From Catellatospora coxensis (GTDB taxonomy: Bacteria; Actinomycetota; Actinomycetes; Mycobacteriales; Micromonosporaceae), in assembly GCF_016862635.1 (NCBI RefSeq), contig NZ_BONI01000008.1, positions 1-64,000 of the forward strand: a stretch of DNA of 64,000 nt, given 5' to 3'. Numbering within the stretch: the first letter of the stretch is position 1; every line of letters begins with the position of its first letter. Positions 33,754-48,399 of the stretch are shown one piece after another. A program made the position numbers and the translations under genes. The notes beneath the pieces are model-generated. The model made no database searches. It worked only from the letters and a program-made list of their open reading frames with translations, and was not told where the DNA came from.

Positions 33754-34509
33754 ATGACCGATCATGGGCAGGACAGGCCGCTGGCGGTGGTCAGCGGCGC
33801 GGGCACGGGCATCGGGTCGGCCACCGCGCTGGCGCTGGCCGAACGGGGACACGACGTCGTCGCGATCGGACGGCGGGCGGACGTGCTGGAACGCGCCGCC
33901 GAGGGCATCCGCGCGGCGACCGGGGCGGCGGTGACGGTGATCGCCGCCGACCTCAGCGAGCCCGACGGAGCCGGACGCGTCGCCGAGGCGCTGGCCGGGC
34001 GGGCGGTGGACGTGCTGGTGAACAACGCGGGCGGGTACGTCGGCCGCGACAGCGACGGGCTGACCGCGGTGGCCGACCAGTGGCGGGCCACCTTCGAGAC
34101 CAACGTGCTCACCGCCGTGCTGCTCACCGAGGCACTGCTGCCGCTGCTGCGCCGCCCCGGCGGCCGGGTGGTGCTGCTGAGCTCCATCGCCGCCCAGCGC
34201 GGCGGCGGCGGGCCGTACTCGGCTGCCAAGGCCGCGCTGCACGGCTGGGTGCTGGACCTGGCGGCACAGCTCGGGCCGGACGGCGCCACGGCCAACGTCG
34301 TCTCACCCGGCTACGTCGCCGAGACGGAGTTCTTCGCCGGCCGGATGACGCCCCAGGGCCACGCCGCACGGGTGGCGCAGACCCTGGTCGGACGAGCCGG
34401 ACGGCCGCGGGACATCGCGGACGCGGTGTGCTGGCTGGCGGGTGAGTCGGGGGGCTACGTGACCGGCCAGATCATCAACGTGAACGGCGGCTCGGTCCTC
34501 GGCCGCTGA
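33754..34509 (+). CDS. Short-chain dehydrogenase/reductase
   Basis: A 251-residue classical SDR. SGAGTGIGSATAL (about 14-26) binds NAD(P), NNAGGY lies near 90, Ser in LLSSIAAQRG and YSAAKAALHG form the active site, and the C-terminal GQIINVNGGS is the usual ending of FabG-like members. TAGGGT at 33742-33747 lies 6 nt before the ATG with no ribosome binding site, so it is leaderless. The role could be 3-oxoacyl-ACP reduction or oxidation of a small alcohol. It converges with the sugar ABC operon across a palindrome. Confidence 0.88.
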   Translation: MTDHGQDRPLAVVSGAGTGIGSATALALAERGHDVVAIGRRADVLERAAEGIRAATGAAVTVIAADLSEPDGAGRVAEALAGRAVDVLVNNAGGYVGRDSDGLTAVADQWRATFETNVLTAVLLTEALLPLLRRPGGRVVLLSSIAAQRGGGGPYSAAKAALHGWVLDLAAQLGPDGATANVVSPGYVAETEFFAGRMTPQGHAARVAQTLVGRAGRPRDIADAVCWLAGESGGYVTGQIINVNGGSVLGR

Positions 34510-34562: not shown

Positions 34563-34614
34563 TTAAGAAGGGCACCTTCTACAACCCGGAGCGTTGTGAA
34601 GGTGCCCTTCCTTT
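34563..34614. repeat. Family A palindrome, copy 3
   Basis: GAAGGGCACCTTC (34567-34579) and GAAGGTGCCCTTC (34598-34610) form the outer stem, and ACAAC/GTTGT extends it inside. TTAA precedes and CTTTGG follows. It fills the gap between convergent SDR and ABC permease genes. Confidence 0.85.
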
Positions 34615-34618
34615 GGTT

Positions 34619-35578
34619 TCAGCCCTTGACGCTGCCGGCGAGCAGGCCGCGGACGAAGTAGCGCTGCAGGGAGAGGAAGACCGTCAGCGGGACGATGATC
34701 GAGACGAAGGCGGCGGCGGTGAGCCGCTGCCACTCGTTGCCGCGGTTGCCGGCCAGCTCGGCCAGGCGCACGGTGAGCGGGGCGTTCTTCGGGCCGCCCG
34801 CGAAGATCAGGGCCACCAGCAGGTCGTTCCAGACCCAGAGGAACTGGAAGATGGCGAACGAGGCCAGGGCGGGCACGATCAGCGGCAGGATGATCGAACG
34901 GAAGATCTTCGCGTGGGTCGCGCCGTCCACCCGGGCCGCCTCGACGAGGTCGCCGGGCAGCTCCGCCATGAAGTTGTGCAGCAGGAAGATGCCCAGCGGC
35001 AGGGCGAAGCAGGTGTGCGCGAACCAGACCGTGATGAACTTGGCCGGGCCGTCCAGGTCCCACGCGGGCAGCAGCTGGAACCCGCCCAGCGAGACGCCGT
35101 AGTTGAAGAAGGACAGCAGCGGGATCAGCGCCATCTGCAGCGGCACGATCTGCAGGGCGAAGATGCCGATGTAGATCCAGTCGCGGCCGCGGAACCGCGT
35201 CCAGGCCAGGGCGTACGCGGCCAGCGCGCAGAACGCCAGCGGGAACAGCACCGACGGGATCGTGATGACCAGCGAGTTGACGAAGTATCCGGCCAGCCCG
35301 CCCGAAGCCGAGCGGGAGCCGAACAGCACCTGCTCGTAGTTCTCCAGGGTGAACTGGGGATTGCTGAAGAAGTTCCACCAGCCGTTGGACTTGATCTCGT
35401 TCTCGGGGCGGATCGAGGAGATCAACACGCCGAGCGTGGGCACGGTCCACAGCAGCGCGATCACCAGCGAGATCGCGCTCGCGGTGCGGCTGGTCAGCTT
35501 CTTGCGCACCCGCCCCGCCACGGTGGGCGGAACCTCGGCGTCCGGCGCTGCCAGAACGGTCTCCGTACCGGTGCTCAT
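34619..35578 (-). CDS. Sugar ABC transporter permease (MalG type)
   Basis: A 319-residue inner-membrane permease of a carbohydrate importer (CUT1 family). Six membrane segments are visible, and the ATPase-docking EAA loop is ELPGDLVEAARVDGATHAKI. The ATG at 35578 has GAGGAGGAACG directly before it, supplied by the small cassette upstream whose stop overlaps this start (ATGA). It is the third protein of the operon after the binding protein and MalF-type permease. No ATPase gene is present; actinobacteria usually share one MsiK-type ATPase among such importers. Confidence 0.93.
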   Translation of the reverse strand: MSTGTETVLAAPDAEVPPTVAGRVRKKLTSRTASAISLVIALLWTVPTLGVLISSIRPENEIKSNGWWNFFSNPQFTLENYEQVLFGSRSASGGLAGYFVNSLVITIPSVLFPLAFCALAAYALAWTRFRGRDWIYIGIFALQIVPLQMALIPLLSFFNYGVSLGGFQLLPAWDLDGPAKFITVWFAHTCFALPLGIFLLHNFMAELPGDLVEAARVDGATHAKIFRSIILPLIVPALASFAIFQFLWVWNDLLVALIFAGGPKNAPLTVRLAELAGNRGNEWQRLTAAAFVSIIVPLTVFLSLQRYFVRGLLAGSVKG

Positions 35579-35652
35579 CGTTCCTCCTCGCTGCGCTCGT
35601 CGTCGCGATGGGCTGCCCTGAACTGCTCGATCCGCTCGCAAAGCTCGCTCAT
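35575..35652 (-). CDS. 25-residue coupled micro-ORF, copy 2
   Basis: It starts MSELCERI and ends DDERSEEER. Its ATG overlaps the stop of copy 1 and its TGA overlaps the ATG of the MalG-type permease, both as ATGA. Its last codons (GAG GAG GAA) double as the Shine-Dalgarno sequence of the permease. It differs from copy 1 at three of 74 positions, one of them silent at an Arg codon. Whether the peptide itself has a function is unknown; the coupling role is inferred from the overlaps. Confidence 0.5.
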   Translation of the reverse strand: MSELCERIEQFRAAHRDDERSEEER

Positions 35653-35726
35653 CGTTCCTCCTCGCTGCGCTCGTCGTCGCGATGAGCTGCCCTGAACTGC
35701 ACGATTCGCTCGCAAAGCTCGCTCAT
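35579..35726. repeat. Tandem 74-bp repeat (two units)
   Basis: Two units with three mismatches lie head to tail between the two permease genes. The period of 74 is not a multiple of three, so successive units are read in different frames, yet each stays open because stop and start overlap. The end of the unit (GACGACGAGCG-AGCGAGGAGGAA) recurs after thrS at about 47897. Confidence 0.9.
35649..35726 (-). CDS. 25-residue coupled micro-ORF, copy 1
   Basis: It encodes a peptide starting MSELCERI and ending DDERSEEER. The ATG overlaps the MalF-type permease stop (TGATG), and its TGA overlaps the start of copy 2 (ATGA). It therefore keeps ribosomes moving from malF to malG across an inserted segment. 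The composition is strongly charged, with one Cys. Confidence 0.5.
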   Translation of the reverse strand: MSELCERIVQFRAAHRDDERSEEER

Positions 35727-36745
35727 CAGCGGGCCCCCTCCAGCCGGCGGCGGCGCATCAGGCGCACCTGGTAGATCACGATGGGGATGACGAACAGGAA
35801 CAGCAGCACCGCCAGGGCGGCGCCCTTGCCCCTCTCGTCGGCCCGGAACGAGTACGTGTACATCTCGTTGGCCACCACGCTGGTGCCGAACTGGCCGCCG
35901 GTCATGGTGCGCACGATGTCGAAGACCTTCAGGGTGCCGATGGAGATGGTGACCAGCACGACGACCAGGGCCGGGCGGATGCTCGGGATGGTGACGCGCC
36001 AGAACATCTGCCCCGCGGTCACGCCGTCGATGCGGGCGGCCTCGACGATGTCGGCGGGGATCGCCTTGATCGCCGCGGAGAGCACCACCATGGCGAAGCC
36101 CGCCTGGATCCAGACCAGCACCACGATCAGGAACAGGGTGTTCCAGGGCCCGTCCAGCAGCCACTGCTGCGGCGTGCCGCCCATCGCGACCACGAGCTGG
36201 TTGAGCAGGCCGATCTGGTCGGCGCCCTCCTGGCGGTACTCGTAGACGAACTTCCAGATGATGCCCGCGCCGACGAACGAGATGGCCATCGGCATGAAGA
36301 CCAGCGACTTGGCGAACGACTCGAACCGGGAGCGGTCCACCATCACCGCGTAGACCAGGCCGACCGCGGTGGAGACGGTGGGCACCAGCAGCACCCAGAG
36401 CAGCGTGCTCAGCAGTACGCCGTACTGCACGGGGGTGGCGCCGAAGTCGGGCAGCATGCCGGAGTTCTTGTCGGTGAAGATCCAGAGGAAGTTCTCCAGG
36501 CCCACGAACTCGGTGGAGTCGGCGTTCATGAACGCCAGGATCATGGTGCGGATGGCCGGCACGACGAGGCCGACCAGCAACAGCAGGCCGGCGGGCGCGA
36601 GCAGCCCCAGCGCGATCCACCGGTCCTTGCGTGCCGGCAGCACGTCCAGCACCAGCAGCAACAGGCCCACCACAGCGGCGAAGGCGATGACGCCGTACAG
36701 CAGCATCATCAACTTCGGGGCTTCGGCGGTGAAGTCGAAGTTCAC
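35726..36745 (-). CDS. Sugar ABC transporter permease (MalF type)
   Basis: A 339-residue permease with a long first periplasmic loop and about seven or eight membrane segments. The EAA loop reads IPADIVEAARIDGVTAGQMF. It is the partner of the MalG-type permease in a CUT1 importer. The GTG at 36745 is preceded by GAGGAGA. Its stop touches the start of the first micro-ORF. The binding-protein gene lies 91 bp upstream, close enough for one transcript. Confidence 0.92.
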   Translation of the reverse strand: MNFDFTAEAPKLMMLLYGVIAFAAVVGLLLLVLDVLPARKDRWIALGLLAPAGLLLLVGLVVPAIRTMILAFMNADSTEFVGLENFLWIFTDKNSGMLPDFGATPVQYGVLLSTLLWVLLVPTVSTAVGLVYAVMVDRSRFESFAKSLVFMPMAISFVGAGIIWKFVYEYRQEGADQIGLLNQLVVAMGGTPQQWLLDGPWNTLFLIVVLVWIQAGFAMVVLSAAIKAIPADIVEAARIDGVTAGQMFWRVTIPSIRPALVVVLVTISIGTLKVFDIVRTMTGGQFGTSVVANEMYTYSFRADERGKGAALAVLLFLFVIPIVIYQVRLMRRRRLEGAR

Positions 36746-36836: not shown

Positions 36837-38183
36837 TCACTTGGGCCAGGTGCCCTCGATGAAGTCGAGGGTGGCCTTGGTGTCGGTGCCGTTGATCCAG
36901 TTGGTCATGCCCTTCCAGAAGGAGTTCGCGCCGACGGCGGCGGGCATCAGGTCGGAGCCGTCGAAGCGGAAGACCGCCCCGCTGTCCTGCAGGATGCCGA
37001 CCGCCACCTTGTCGATCGGGTTGGACACGTTCGCGACGTCCAGGCCCTTGTTGGCGGAGATCCAGTTGTTCAGCTTGGCGCGGCTGTTGGCGAAGTCGGC
37101 GCTGGCCAGGTAGGTCTGCACCGCCTGGGTGGCCGGGCTGTCGGTGAACGCGCCGACGAACTCGCCGCCGCCCAGCACCGGCTTGCCCTTGGCCGGGTCG
37201 ATCGCCGGCAGGTAGAAGGCGAACGCGTCGCCGTCCTCGGCGACCTTGGTGCCCTTCGGCCACTGGTTGGCGTAGAAGGACGCCTGGCGGTGCATGCCGC
37301 ACTTCTTCTGGACGACCGGCAGGCCGCCGTCCTGGAAGGTGGTGGTGGCGATGGACTTCACGCCGCCGATGCCGCCGTTGACGTACTTCTCGTTCTTCAG
37401 GATCGAGCCCACCCGGTCGGTCGCCGAGACGATCCGCGGGTCGTTGAACGGGATGGCGTGGGTGACCCACTGGTCGTACACGTCCGGGCCCTGCTCGCGC
37501 AGCAGCACGTCCTCGATCCAGTCGGTGGCCGGCCAGCCGGTCGCGTCCTGCGAGCCGATGCCCGCGCACCACGGCTTGATGCCGGCGGTGACCATCTTCT
37601 CGCTGAGCGCGATCATCTCGTCCCAGGTGCCCGGGACGGTCCAGCCCTTCTCCTTGAACAGCGAGGGGGAGTACCACACGAACGACTTCACGTTGGCGCC
37701 CAGCGGGGCGCCGTACAGCGTGCCGTTGACGGTGCCGTATTTGAGCCAGTCGGGCGAGAAGTTCTGGGTGGCCATGGCCTTGGTCTTCTCGCCGGCGGCC
37801 TTGAGCTTGCCGCCCTTGGCGAAGAACTCCAGCAGACCCGGCTGCGGGATGAAGGCCAGGTCGGGAGCGTCGCCGCCCTCGACGCGGACCTTCAGCTGCG
37901 CCTCGAACTCGCCGCTGCCCTCGTACTCGATCTTCACGCCGGTGCAGTCGGCGAACGCCTTCCAGGCGTCCTCCAGCAGGCCCGCCTCGGCGTCACGGAT
38001 GGGGGAGTAGATGGTGACGGTCTCGCCGGCGATGCCGGTGTAGTCCTTGTAGGCGGCGCACTCGGGGGTGTCGAGCTTGCCCTCGGCGGTGGGTTCGGAC
38101 GTGCCGCCGCATGCCGCGACGGTGAGAGCCAGAACGACCGCACCGGAGAAGGCGAGCAGACGCCGCTGTCTGTGGGATGCCAT
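36837..38183 (-). CDS. Sugar ABC transporter substrate-binding lipoprotein
   Basis: A 448-residue extracellular solute-binding protein (family 1). The lipobox is LTVAAC with Cys25, so it is anchored to the outer face of the membrane. The mature part shows the family's periplasmic-binding fold (ETVTIYSPIRDAEAG at the first strand; FIPQPGLLEFFAKGGKL). GAGGAGGAAACTCC precedes the ATG. It is first in the operon with the two permeases, under a LacI-family-like box. The ligand is likely an oligosaccharide such as an alpha- or beta-glucoside; the sequence does not settle which. Confidence 0.92.
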   Translation of the reverse strand: MASHRQRRLLAFSGAVVLALTVAACGGTSEPTAEGKLDTPECAAYKDYTGIAGETVTIYSPIRDAEAGLLEDAWKAFADCTGVKIEYEGSGEFEAQLKVRVEGGDAPDLAFIPQPGLLEFFAKGGKLKAAGEKTKAMATQNFSPDWLKYGTVNGTLYGAPLGANVKSFVWYSPSLFKEKGWTVPGTWDEMIALSEKMVTAGIKPWCAGIGSQDATGWPATDWIEDVLLREQGPDVYDQWVTHAIPFNDPRIVSATDRVGSILKNEKYVNGGIGGVKSIATTTFQDGGLPVVQKKCGMHRQASFYANQWPKGTKVAEDGDAFAFYLPAIDPAKGKPVLGGGEFVGAFTDSPATQAVQTYLASADFANSRAKLNNWISANKGLDVANVSNPIDKVAVGILQDSGAVFRFDGSDLMPAAVGANSFWKGMTNWINGTDTKATLDFIEGTWPK

Positions 38184-45714: not shown

Positions 45715-45825
45715 ATGCGGATGAACCGCAGGCGGCCGGAACCGGTAACCGGCATGATCGGCGCGCCCGATAGCATGGCCGGAGCCGGACAAACCGCAGC
45801 AGAGGACTTGAGGAGATCACCGTGA
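45715..45825 (+). CDS. Possible 36-residue coupled upstream ORF of thrS
   Basis: A frame with AAAGGAG directly before ATGCGGATG ends in TGA overlapping the thrS GTG (GTGA). It has only two Thr codons, so it does not look like a threonine leader peptide. A -10-like TAGCAT for thrS lies inside it, which argues against. It could still be a genuine coupled frame, as similar overlaps are frequent in this window. Confidence 0.35.
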
Positions 45826-47858
45826 GCGTTTCGATCAGCCCGCCGCAGGCCGACCCCGTCGTCGTCCGGGCCGGGACGACGGGCGCGGAGGCGATCGCCG
45901 AGGCCGGCCTGCCGGTGCACGGCCCCAAGGCGATCGTGGTGGTCCGCGACCCCGAGGGCCGCCTGCGCGACCTGGACTGGTCTCCCGCGGTCGACACCGC
46001 GGTCGAGCCGGTCGGCATCGACAGCAAGGACGGCCTCGACGTGCTGCGCCACTCCACGGCGCACGTGCTCGCCCAGGCGGTGCAGGACATCTTCCCCGAG
46101 GCGAAGCTGGGCATCGGCCCGCCGATCGACAACGGCTTCTACTACGACTTCTCGGTGGCCAAGCCGTTCCACCCGGACGACCTGGACAAGATCGAGAAGC
46201 GGATGCAGGAGATCGTCAAGTCGGGGCAGCGCTTCCAGCGCCGCCGCTTCGAGACGCTCGACGAGGCCAAGGCCGAGCTGAAGGACGAGCCGTTCAAGCT
46301 CGAACTGGTCGACATCAAGGGCGACGCGGGCGACGACGTCATGGAGGTGGGCGGCGGCGAGCTGACCATCTACGACAACCTCGACGCCAAGACCGGCGAG
46401 CGCTGCTGGGGCGACCTGTGCCGGGGCCCGCACCTGCCGTCCACCCGGCTGATCGGCGCGTTCAAGCTGATGCGCTCCGCGGCGGCGTACTGGCGCGGCT
46501 CGGAGAAGAACCCCCAGCTGCAGCGGGTGTACGGCACCGCGTGGCCGACCCGCGACCAGCTCAAGGACTACCTGAAGCTGCTGGAGGAGGCGGCCCGCCG
46601 CGACCACCGCAAGCTGGGCACCGACCTCGACCTGTTCAGCTTCCCCGACGAGATCGGCTCCGGCCTGGCCGTCTTCCACCCCAAGGGCGGTGTGATCAAG
46701 CGCGAGATGGAGGACTACGTCCGCCTGCGCCACATCGAGGAGGGCTTCCAGTACGTCGGGACGCCGCACATCACCAAGGAAGGCCTCTTCCACACCTCGG
46801 GTCACCTGCCTTACTACAAGGAGACCATGTTCCCGCCGATGGACATGGAGGGCAGCGACTACTACCTCAAGGCCATGAACTGCCCGATGCACAACCTGAT
46901 CTACCGGTCGCGCGGGCGTTCCTACCGTGAGCTGCCGATCCGGCTGTTCGAGTTCGGCTCGGTGTACCGGTTCGAGAAGTCGGGCGTGATCCACGGCCTG
47001 ACCCGGGTGCGCGGCTTCACCCAGGACGACTCGCACTCCTACGTCACCAAGGAGCAGGCGGCCGCCGAGATCAAGCACCTGCTGGACTTCGTGCTCGGCC
47101 TGCTCAAGGACTTCGGCATCACGGACTTCTACCTGGAGCTGTCGACCCGTGACGACAGCAAGCCGGAGAAGTTCGTCGGCTCGGAGGAGGACTGGGTCAC
47201 GGCGACCGCGGTGCTGGAGCAGTGCGCCCTGGAGACCGGGCTGACCCTGGTGCCGGATCCGGGCGGCGCGGCCTTCTACGGCCCGAAGATCTCCGTGCAG
47301 GCCAAGGACGCCATCGGCCGGACCTGGCAGATGTCGACGATCCAGTACGACTTCAACCAGCCGAAGGGCTTCGAGCTGGAGTACCAGGCCGCGGACGGCA
47401 CGCGCCAGCAGCCGGTCATGATCCACTGTGCCAAGTTCGGCTCGATCGAGCGCTTCATCGGCGTGCTCACCGAGCACTACGCGGGCGCGTTCCCGGCCTG
47501 GCTGGCCCCGATCCAGGTGGTCGGCATCCCGATCCGCAGCGACGACGAGGCCGGGCACACCGCCTACCTGTACGACTTCGTGGCGAAGCTGCGCAAGGCG
47601 GGCATCCGGGCCGAGGTCGACAGCTCCGACGAGCGCATGCAGAAGAAGATCCGCACCGCGCAGCAGCAGAAGATCCCGTTCATGGCCATCGTCGGTGACC
47701 AGGACCTGGCCGACGGCACGGTGTCCTTCCGCTACCGCGACGGCTCGCAGCGCAACGGCGTCAGCCTCGACGAGGCCGTCGCCCACGTGACCGAGATCGT
47801 GCGCTCCCGCGTCAACACCGGCCCGTCCGCCGCCGTGGCGGAGAACGCCGAGGCATGA
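45822..47858 (+). CDS. thrS: Threonyl-tRNA synthetase
   Basis: A 678-residue class II synthetase that charges tRNA-Thr. An N-terminal TGS domain (1-75) is followed by the second additional domain with [10 protein letters not shown], the core with [12 protein letters not shown] (zinc Cys and His ligands) and [13 protein letters not shown], and a C-terminal anticodon-binding domain (about 580-670). GAGGAGATCACC precedes the GTG. The stop overlaps a 23-residue micro-ORF, which links thrS to the GNAT and HIT genes. The order thrS-HIT-pgsA-acyltransferase-pimA is conserved across actinobacteria. Confidence 0.96.
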
Positions 47859-47926
47859 GCGAGCGCAGCGAGCGAGCCGTGTCGGACTCCCGCGCTGACG
47901 ACGAGCGTAGCGAGGAGGAAGCGTGA
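47855..47926 (+). CDS. 23-residue coupled micro-ORF between thrS and the GNAT gene
   Basis: It begins MSERSERA and ends DDERSEEEA. It opens on ATGA overlapping the thrS stop and closes on GTGA overlapping the next start. Its last 20 or so nucleotides are nearly the same as the end of the 74-bp cassettes at 35.6 kb and include the GAGGAGGAA that serves as ribosome binding site for the GNAT gene. Confidence 0.5.
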
Positions 47927-48399
47927 GCACTCGTACCAACGCGGCCGGGTTCGTGCTCGACACGGACCCGGCCCGGCTCGACCTCGACACCGTCGAGCGC
48001 TGGCTGGCCACCGAGAGCTACTGGGCCAACGGGCGCGAGCGCGCGGTCATCGAGCGCTCACTGGCCGGCTCCACCGTCTACGGGATCTACGCCCCGGACG
48101 GTACGCAGGTCGGCCTGCTGCGGGTGGTCACCGACGGGGCCACCTTCGCGTGGCTGTGCGACGTGTTCATCGAGGCCGCGTACCGGGGACAGGGCCTGGC
48201 CCGGTGGGCGGTGGCGGCGGTCCGCGACGACGTGCTGGCGCTCGGCGTGTACCGGATCATCCTGGCGACCGCCGACGCGCACGGCGTCTACGCCGAGGCC
48301 GGGTTCACCCCGCTGGCCGAGCCGGACCGCTGGATGCAGCTGACCACCCGGGTCATCGGCCGCCCCGACGTGCCCTTCACCGCGGCGGCGCCGGCATGA
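47923..48399 (+). CDS. GNAT family acetyltransferase
   Basis: A 158-residue single-domain acetyltransferase. The acetyl-CoA binding loop is AAYRGQGLARWAVAAV near residue 86, and the C-terminal strand YAEAGFTPLAEPDRWMQL is typical of a widespread subgroup with the WM motif. It starts with GTG overlapping the micro-ORF stop and its own stop overlaps the HIT start (ATGA), so it sits firmly in the thrS operon. The substrate is unknown; in mycobacteria this position is empty. Confidence 0.87.
   Translation: MSTRTNAAGFVLDTDPARLDLDTVERWLATESYWANGRERAVIERSLAGSTVYGIYAPDGTQVGLLRVVTDGATFAWLCDVFIEAAYRGQGLARWAVAAVRDDVLALGVYRIILATADAHGVYAEAGFTPLAEPDRWMQLTTRVIGRPDVPFTAAAPA

Follow-up and report, generated by a model that had tools for sequence, protein, structure and literature searches.

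The two 74-nt repeats that lie between the malF- and malG-type genes of Catellatospora coxensis are probably copies of a dispersed, self-contained translational-coupling cassette. The units that were read appear to be small cistrons of about 19-27 codons, each of which would start in the stop/start overlap of the upstream gene and create a further RTGA overlap where it ends and the downstream gene begins. The window is the whole stretch of DNA that was analysed, 64,000 nucleotides of contig NZ_BONI01000008.1, and its relevant features are as follows.

36837-38183, minus strand: solute-binding protein gene, next upstream of malF and probably in the same operon as malF and malG (SBP_bac_1, 4.2e-24)
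35726-36745, minus strand: malF-type ABC permease gene, the upstream partner (BPD_transp_1, 5.8e-18)
35653-35726, minus strand: cassette unit 1, 74 nt, a mini-ORF whose start overlaps the malF stop (TGATG)
35579-35652, minus strand: cassette unit 2, 74 nt, a mini-ORF whose start overlaps the unit 1 stop (ATGA) and whose stop overlaps the malG start (ATGA)
34619-35578, minus strand: malG-type ABC permease gene, the downstream partner (BPD_transp_1, 1.5e-17)
35704-35726, minus strand: hairpin A of unit 1, predicted from sequence and family covariation; ATGAGCGAGC (35726-35717) pairs with GCGAGCGAAT (35713-35704) across the loop TTT and contains the unit 1 start codon
35630-35652, minus strand: hairpin A of unit 2, predicted in the same way; ATGAGCGAGC (35652-35643) pairs with GCGAGCGGAT (35639-35630)
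35650-35684, minus strand: hairpin B of unit 1, predicted in the same way; CATCG (35684-35680) pairs with CGATG (35654-35650) around CGAGCGCAGCGAG and GAGGAG, and contains the unit 2 start codon
35576-35610, minus strand: hairpin B of unit 2, predicted in the same way; CATCG (35610-35606) pairs with CGATG (35580-35576) and contains the malG start codon
35658-35675, minus strand: conserved core of unit 1, GACGAGCGCAGCGAGGAG, including the Shine-Dalgarno-like GAGGAG
35584-35601, minus strand: conserved core of unit 2, with a Shine-Dalgarno-like GAGGAG for malG
47855-47922, plus strand: second cassette of the window, a single unit of 68 nt between a thrS-type gene (45822-47858) and a GNAT gene (47923-48399)

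The two units between malF and malG were identical at 71 of 74 positions (96%, three differences), and TRF gave a period of 74 with a score of 289. The chain of cistrons runs from malF through TGATG into unit 1, through ATGA into unit 2 and through a further ATGA into malG, with the malF stop at 35728-35726 and the malG ATG at 35578, and each unit encodes a peptide of 25 amino acids that begins with MSELCERI followed by V or E. An earlier note on this DNA had described tandem 74-bp units with three differences, 25-residue peptides and TGATG and ATGA overlaps, all of which the sequence, the alignment and TRF confirmed. It was also right that the period of 74 breaks the reading frame and that the overlaps reset it, but not that each unit shifts the frame by one, since 74 is 3 x 24 + 2 and the shift is two bases per unit (equivalently minus one). 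Its proposal that the unit supplies the ribosome binding site of the next gene agrees with the GAGGAG that the core carries ahead of malG, and the units in general would provide this Shine-Dalgarno-like element to the gene downstream. No match to the cassette was found in plasmid and phage collections at E 0.01. Beyond the malG end of the operon, an inverted repeat at 34565-34613 (AAGAAGGGCACCTTC ... GAAGGTGCCCTTCCTT), probably a two-way terminator judging from its sequence, lies between the convergent ends of malG and a plus-strand ORF that ends at 34509.

When the malF-malG unit pair was used as a query, 45 matches were obtained in the C. coxensis genome (E up to 10, the query itself included). 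The 18-nt core GACGAGCGNAGCGAGGAG matched this genome 84 times with at most one mismatch, 42 times on each strand, whereas the reversed pattern matched three times, and a 26-mer core was absent from all 100 shuffled versions of the window; these two results exclude chance. Near-identical units, with 2 to 5 differences in 72 positions, were located at different sites of the genome, and units at the non-orthologous loci L005 and L007 differed at 2 of 72. Assembly breaks were observed inside cassette arrays at the end of contig C7 and the start of C83, at the starts of C129 and C163 and at the end of C102 (L013, L012, L010, L071 and L069), with a unit of the same kind on either side of the C7/C83 and C129/C163 breaks, and the real arrays may therefore exceed their assembled length.

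The search of related genomes proposed in the earlier note showed that the unit is dispersed well beyond this locus. The exact core was found in 11 of 41 genomes (C. coxensis and 40 relatives), and in the genus, whose eleven genomes are numbered G000 (C. coxensis) to G010, it occurred 66, 14, 0, 60, 77, 2, 38, 10, 0, 0 and 85 times, a range of 0 to 85 among the ten congeners. These exact-core counts are underestimates, because a covariance model detected at least 11 units in G002 and at least nine in G009, both of which have no exact core. The flanks of the same sites in different loci showed mostly 90-96% aligned identity. Among the named loci listed with the core and RTGA, 77 of 95 belonged to Catellatospora. 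Across Micromonosporaceae, the exact core followed by RTGA was present in 52 of 300 genomes and 7 of 44 genera; with the covariance model, 71 of the 101 genomes searched, from 31 of the 44 genera, had units and 30 had none, up to 48 candidates being scored per genome so that the unit counts are lower bounds. Across the order, the same model found units in 36 of 81 genomes, other families included, and none in 45. The phenomenon is thus larger than the earlier note described, which lacked both the two covarying hairpins and the occurrence outside Micromonosporaceae.

Several related sequences were observed alongside the family. In genome G019 (genus g10), a distinct repeat with a tandem period of 58 or 60 (L217-L219) shares the core, which is followed by a CCCCGCAGGG-type sequence in place of RTGA, and the G019 matches, which lack RTGA, were set aside as belonging to another repeat. 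L215 and L216 of genus g60 contain a cassette that is related to the family but distinct from it, with a period of 89 (3n+2) and the 5' hairpin ATGACCGGTCCGGAGCGCAGCGGAGGGGCCGGTCAT; a GTG copy in L216 has the partner CAC, and the L215 sequence is that of the Dactylosporangium locus L124. In several species of Micromonospora, the core and RTGA occur before particular genes at what appear to be two single sites that are conserved (L105, L108 and L137; L089, L131 and L170), and these copies are perhaps old fixed remnants.

To describe the unit, we gathered 85 distinct copies with at most two mismatches in the core from loci of the C. coxensis genome, reading frame not being a criterion of selection; after the core scan, 20 of the 22 core sites that lacked a locus were added, and C83:26663 and C98:23880 were left out. 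A typical copy reads RTGAGCGAGC-NNN-GCGAGCGAAT..., followed by a variable centre and by CATGCC...GACGAGCGNAGCGAGGAG..GGCATGA. An RTGA whose TGA is in the frame of the core followed the core in 83 of the 85 copies, 5 nt downstream in 81 and 8 nt downstream in two, and the copies that break this rule are L018 and L074. Almost all of the clusters (63 of 65) open directly into an ORF that either has 100 codons or more or leaves the locus, with a median GC3 of 0.95. The TGA of the upstream gene lies inside the opening RTGA of the unit in 32 of the 47 clusters with an identifiable start and upstream frame, while 18 of the 65 clusters have no start that fits the search pattern and two have a start out of frame. 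These counts show the stop/start overlap that characterizes translationally coupled pairs. For the consensus of 53-54 units, an in-frame start was a selection criterion when the unit was single, so the fact that 54 of 54 units were in frame is not independent evidence. One array of two units (L002, C8:80970-81078) is located directly before a RuvB gene, and the congeneric L153 has one unit.

The frame rule extends to the length of the units. Tandem units of the C. coxensis genome are spaced by 68 (12 cases), 71 (5), 74 (2) or 67 (1), that is, 3n+2 in 19 of 20, and the same held for 23 of 27 spacings in other loci, the rule-breaking spacings being 67, 72 and 75. Among the covariance-model matches listed, the length was 3n+2 in 103 of 107 outside C. 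coxensis but within Micromonosporaceae and in 88 of 90 from the order-wide search (62 of 64 of those outside the family); the model was trained on 3n+2 units, but its indel costs have no three-base period. Lengths of 77 and 80 were far more frequent than 69, 70, 73 or 76. Unit lengths ranged from 47 to 83 nt, and since nearly all of them are 3n+2, indels must mostly have been multiples of three. Twelve further loci, ten from other genera and two from G002, each contained units that have RTGA at both ends and are 3n+2 long, as did 17 of 20 more loci, 15 of the 20 being outside the family; the exceptions were a TTG start in L316, a stop five bases early in L317 and a start out of register in L318. 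A length of 3n+2 means that insertion, deletion or tandem copying leaves both stop/start overlaps intact, which upholds the earlier expectation that extra units preserve them. The counts of length and of covariation were drawn from related sequences and hence do not represent independent events.

The hairpin A loop offers a second view of this constraint. It has 2, 3 or 4 bases, and a change of one base shifts the frame of the peptide. Nevertheless, an RTGA overlap at a distance of 40-90 nt provided the first in-frame stop in 113 of 119 instances with a loop of 3, in all 10 with a loop of 4 and in 3 of 5 with a loop of 2.

Comparisons among the eleven genomes of the genus revealed both filled and empty sites. 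The malF-malG site was empty in five genomes (G001, G002, G005, G006 and G008), where a bare ATGA overlap, ...CGATGAGC..., joins the genes; three genomes (G004, G007 and G010) have one unit with exactly 74 nt extra each, C. coxensis has two, and two have other inserts, namely a 51-nt remnant in G003, which goes against the 3n+2 rule, and a divergent 80-nt insert in G009. Three sites besides malF-malG have both filled and empty alleles. The site at 47855-47922, between the thrS-type and GNAT genes, is filled in four of the eleven genomes, and empty in five (the empty call in G001 relying on a weak right anchor), and in two it could be aligned on one side only. At L024, units are present in four of the eleven genomes and absent from seven. 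At L061, two genomes have full units, G010 has a full unit and a 24-nt piece in the same frame, one genome has a 35-nt remnant and G004 is empty, the others being too divergent for comparison at the base level; the 24-nt piece breaks the rule, and the 35-nt remnant is still 3n+2.

Unit number differed in 32 of 57 orthologous site pairs. The arithmetic of array length across orthologs fitted 40 of the 57 pairs and 22 of the 32 in which the copy number changes; several exceptions look like core miscounts at the flank edge, though all of them stay counted. These results support the view of the earlier note that the unit can be inserted or duplicated within an operon, and the opposite outcome that it had named, a unit unique to this locus and constant in relatives, was not observed. 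Filled sites have RTGA(GC) at either end and empty sites have a single copy of it, but the repeat may be supplied by the element's own ends. A longer target-site duplication was dropped, because the dinucleotides that precede the left and the right start codon agreed in 27 of 45 cases, only slightly above the 23.9 of shuffled data. In a tree of the flanks (7008 columns, midpoint root), the copy-rich genomes cluster, apart from G005, G008 and G009 (2, 0 and 0 exact cores) and from G002 and G007 (0 and 10), and the copy-poor G001 is nested within the copy-rich group. This suggests that unit number grew in one clade, with some precise losses; the unit that G007 has at malF-malG resembles that of G004 and may be older. 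Precise loss could have arisen when the RTGAGC repeats on either side of a unit recombined.

Covariation across the family places the start codons in two predicted hairpins. Stem B pairs bases upstream of the core with the next start codon and the bases that immediately precede it. At 65 sites of the C. coxensis genome, 185 of the 195 cells of its three variable pairs were paired, against 156.1 (sd 2.8) in shuffles and a maximum of 171 in 20,000 of them, and slid registers gave only 17/130 to 79/195 paired cells. The pair that involves the start base was T-A in 46, C-G in 9, T-G in 1 and unpaired in 9, a GTG start usually having C as its partner in place of T. When all 12 pairs of both hairpins were scored in 53 units, 94.0% of the cells were paired, compared with 88.6 (sd 0.4) after shuffling; 25 cells were changed on both sides, compared with 3.3 expected, and all four pairs of helix 3 change on both sides. 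Helix 2, where stem B includes the TG of the start codon, was paired in 80.2% of cells, and the inner core pairs say little because they hardly vary.

Stem A has the form AT-GA-GC-GA-GC-NNN-GC-GA-GC-GA-AT, in which Watson-Crick dinucleotides alternate with tandem G.A steps and the 5' arm contains the start codon of the unit. With position 23 left free, the rest of hairpin A mostly required, the whole unit not required and differing orthologs counted, the first base and position 23 were A-T in 106, G-C in 24, A-C in 4 and G-T in 4 of 138 distinct instances, while shuffles reached at most 108 Watson-Crick pairs in 10,000. The same pair was A-T 32, G-C 6, A-C 2 and G-T 1 in the C. coxensis loci and A-T 24, G-C 11, A-C 0 and G-T 0 in L205-224 and L289-320, which are nearly all from other genera. 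A looser definition of the unit gave A-T 48, G-C 13, A-C 11, G-T 5 and A-G 1, with 12 of 78 unpaired and 5 wobble, so that the covariation at the stem A start codon, as far as sequences tell, is real but not absolute. The inner stem (9-10 with 14-15), taken alone, gave a mixed signal: of 47 distinct instances, 31 had the common form and 3 a compensated one, 4 had a wobble and 9 were unpaired. In other genera, the outer G.A step is replaced by Watson-Crick pairs (ATGACC..GGTCAT, GTGACC..GGTCAC, ATGAGC..GCTCAT and GTGAGC..GCTCAC), and two mismatched copies, ATGACC..GGTCAC, were also found there. Folding energies predicted for six units as DNA and RNA were not better than those of shuffles (z -2.0 to +1.4), and stem B was absent from the predicted minimum-energy fold of the window's own two units. 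These predictions are evidence against a very stable fold of the unit in isolation, and the case for the hairpins therefore relies on covariation.

Among the alternatives, the one that survives best, although we consider it unlikely, is that the unit is purely selfish hairpin DNA, spread by a single-strand transposase acting in trans with RTGA as the target tetranucleotide, so that the mini-ORF is a by-product and only operon-sparing insertions survive. IS200/IS605 and REP elements have a fixed target tetranucleotide, and IS200/IS605 elements insert beside it and have hairpins near both ends. The RTGA and hairpins at both ends of the cassette recall such single-strand transposition, by analogy, but an identical placement would result from selection for coupling. 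The inner core CGAGCGNAGCGAG, nearly invariant except at its N, fits what we take to be a GNA-loop DNA minihairpin, with the variable N as the free middle base of the loop; such minihairpins are unusually stable. A search of the open-licence literature for the GNA minihairpin motif found nothing. The spread of exact-core number between congeners would also suit a selfish element. Y1 transposase (Y1_Tnp) domains, however, were found in 6 of the 11 genomes of the genus and not in G006, which has 38 cores, and GAGCGNAGCGAG was in none of the nine Y1 loci inspected, about 1.5 kb to each side. A Y1 transposase was thus rejected as the driver, since its presence does not track core number and no core lies near the nine Y1 genes inspected; past mobilisation by a since-lost enzyme would be compatible with these results. 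Nor does selfishness alone explain why loop indels are compensated in such a way that an RTGA still ends the unit.

It is improbable that the unit is a regulatory leader, an attenuator or stalling peptide through which a signal sets the output of the downstream gene while hairpins A and B compete to form the switch. The start codon at a tandem junction could pair upstream, in B, or downstream, in A, and the two folds would therefore be mutually exclusive in arrays. Against this reading stands the diversity of the downstream genes, which by Pfam include RuvB, T2SSE, ABC permeases, ROK, response regulator, AA kinase, aldehyde dehydrogenase and GNAT. Pfam was run on 28 of 61 downstream genes, plus malG and the GNAT gene of the window, and 11 of the 28 checked were of ABC- or MFS-type families, a share for which the genome baseline was not part of the comparison. 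Rfam gave no match at 35400-35900 up to E = 1.

More improbable still is a function of the short peptide itself, even though its ends, MSERSERI...DERSEE, recur. Differences between close units (115 pairs) were as many at codon position 1 as at position 3 (413, 259 and 422 at positions 1, 2 and 3), and this lack of a third-position excess led us to reject a functional peptide. Loop indels that shift the frame in mid-peptide are tolerated, and the peptide centres vary freely among malF-malG orthologs. The relay, that is, the frame up to RTGA, appears from the sequences to be preserved and the peptide not. A local tandem duplication of no wider meaning, which would account for the two near-identical units at malF-malG, has a negligible chance and was ruled out by the dispersed copies in the genome and by the filled and empty sites.

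The translational-coupling cassette was also compared with known systems. Coupling at ATGA and TGATG overlaps, in which the ribosome from upstream opens structure over the downstream start, is described in the accessible text of two papers (PMC6728339, PMC12548453); the overlaps, the Shine-Dalgarno sequence and the structured downstream start are alike, but those overlaps join an operon's own genes, whereas the cassette is dispersed and adds a cistron, a second overlap and two hairpins. In the attI1 site of class 1 integrons, as far as the available text goes, the short ORF-11 and ORF-17 raise translation of the adjoining mobile gene by coupling, and the amino acids of ORF-11 matter little (PMC8876359). 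The cassette would resemble ORF-11 in acting as a coupled, leader-like short ORF; the integron ORFs, however, lie in a recombination site, with the ORF-11 stop coming from the inserted cassette, and are not presented there as many-copy elements at RTGA overlaps. Rickettsia palindromic elements are described, in the part available, as short peptide-encoding repeats inserted in frame within ORFs to give translational fusions (PMC10969869). In contrast, the actinobacterial cassette is a separate cistron that keeps both neighbours, and the stop of its own in 83 of the 85 copies is at odds with in-frame fusion into a host protein.

REP/RAYT, MITE and BOX elements share with the cassette that they are short, dispersed and have secondary structure (PMC3733652, PMC3049150). 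In the accessible portions of these sources, GTAG REPs often supply a stop codon (PMC3733652), and large pneumococcal BOX elements form ORFs (PMC3049150). Unlike REP/RAYT and MITE elements, the cassette shows neither a GTAG tag nor terminal inverted repeats, no transposase was linked to it in the Y1 loci inspected, and its 3n+2 length and start/stop placement are strict: in the consensus of 53 units, neither GTAG nor CGTC was found at the ends, which carry RTGA, and the ends RTGAGCGAG and GGCRTGA share one orientation, with no terminal inverted repeats. Because it misses testable defining features of the REP, MITE and Rickettsia palindromic families, we file the cassette as a new kind, judged against the open-licence literature. 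No description of this element was found in the open-licence literature of PubMed Central; a 2015 genome announcement for Micromonospora carbonacea counts 27 interspersed and 4,100 tandem repeats, which its available text does not describe (PMC4392142).

We propose that the cassette works as a relay. Hairpin A would cover the start codon of the unit itself and hairpin B the next start codon, which would probably reduce de novo initiation. A ribosome that comes from the upstream gene would read through, terminate at TGA and restart on the overlapping RTG, one cistron after another; at malF-malG, a ribosome from malF would reinitiate on unit 1, on unit 2 and then on malG. The cassette has spread to many operons, where relay-preserving insertions would be tolerated, and unit number could tune the malF:malG ratio. 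A broader reading, which we put forward tentatively and with less than even confidence, is that the cassettes form a class of mobile translational couplers that extends across the order. They would be single-strand hairpin elements with the RTGA overlap itself as their target and with a throw-away cistron that serves only to pass the ribosome on. Gain, loss and multiplication of units would tune the stoichiometry of neighbouring operon genes, and the exclusive hairpins A and B would reserve the start codons at array junctions for arriving ribosomes.

Dispersed repeats are usually regarded as tolerated between genes and harmful within operons. Here a repeat appears to be built to enter the four-base stop/start overlap, the tightest spot in an operon, with both genes still readable. 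The malF-malG site with zero, one or two units in sister species, and the array before ruvB with two units against one, would provide natural alleles for studying how ribosomes pass between cistrons. The cassettes would also add to the small ORFs of actinobacteria and offer a ready coupler part for synthetic operons.
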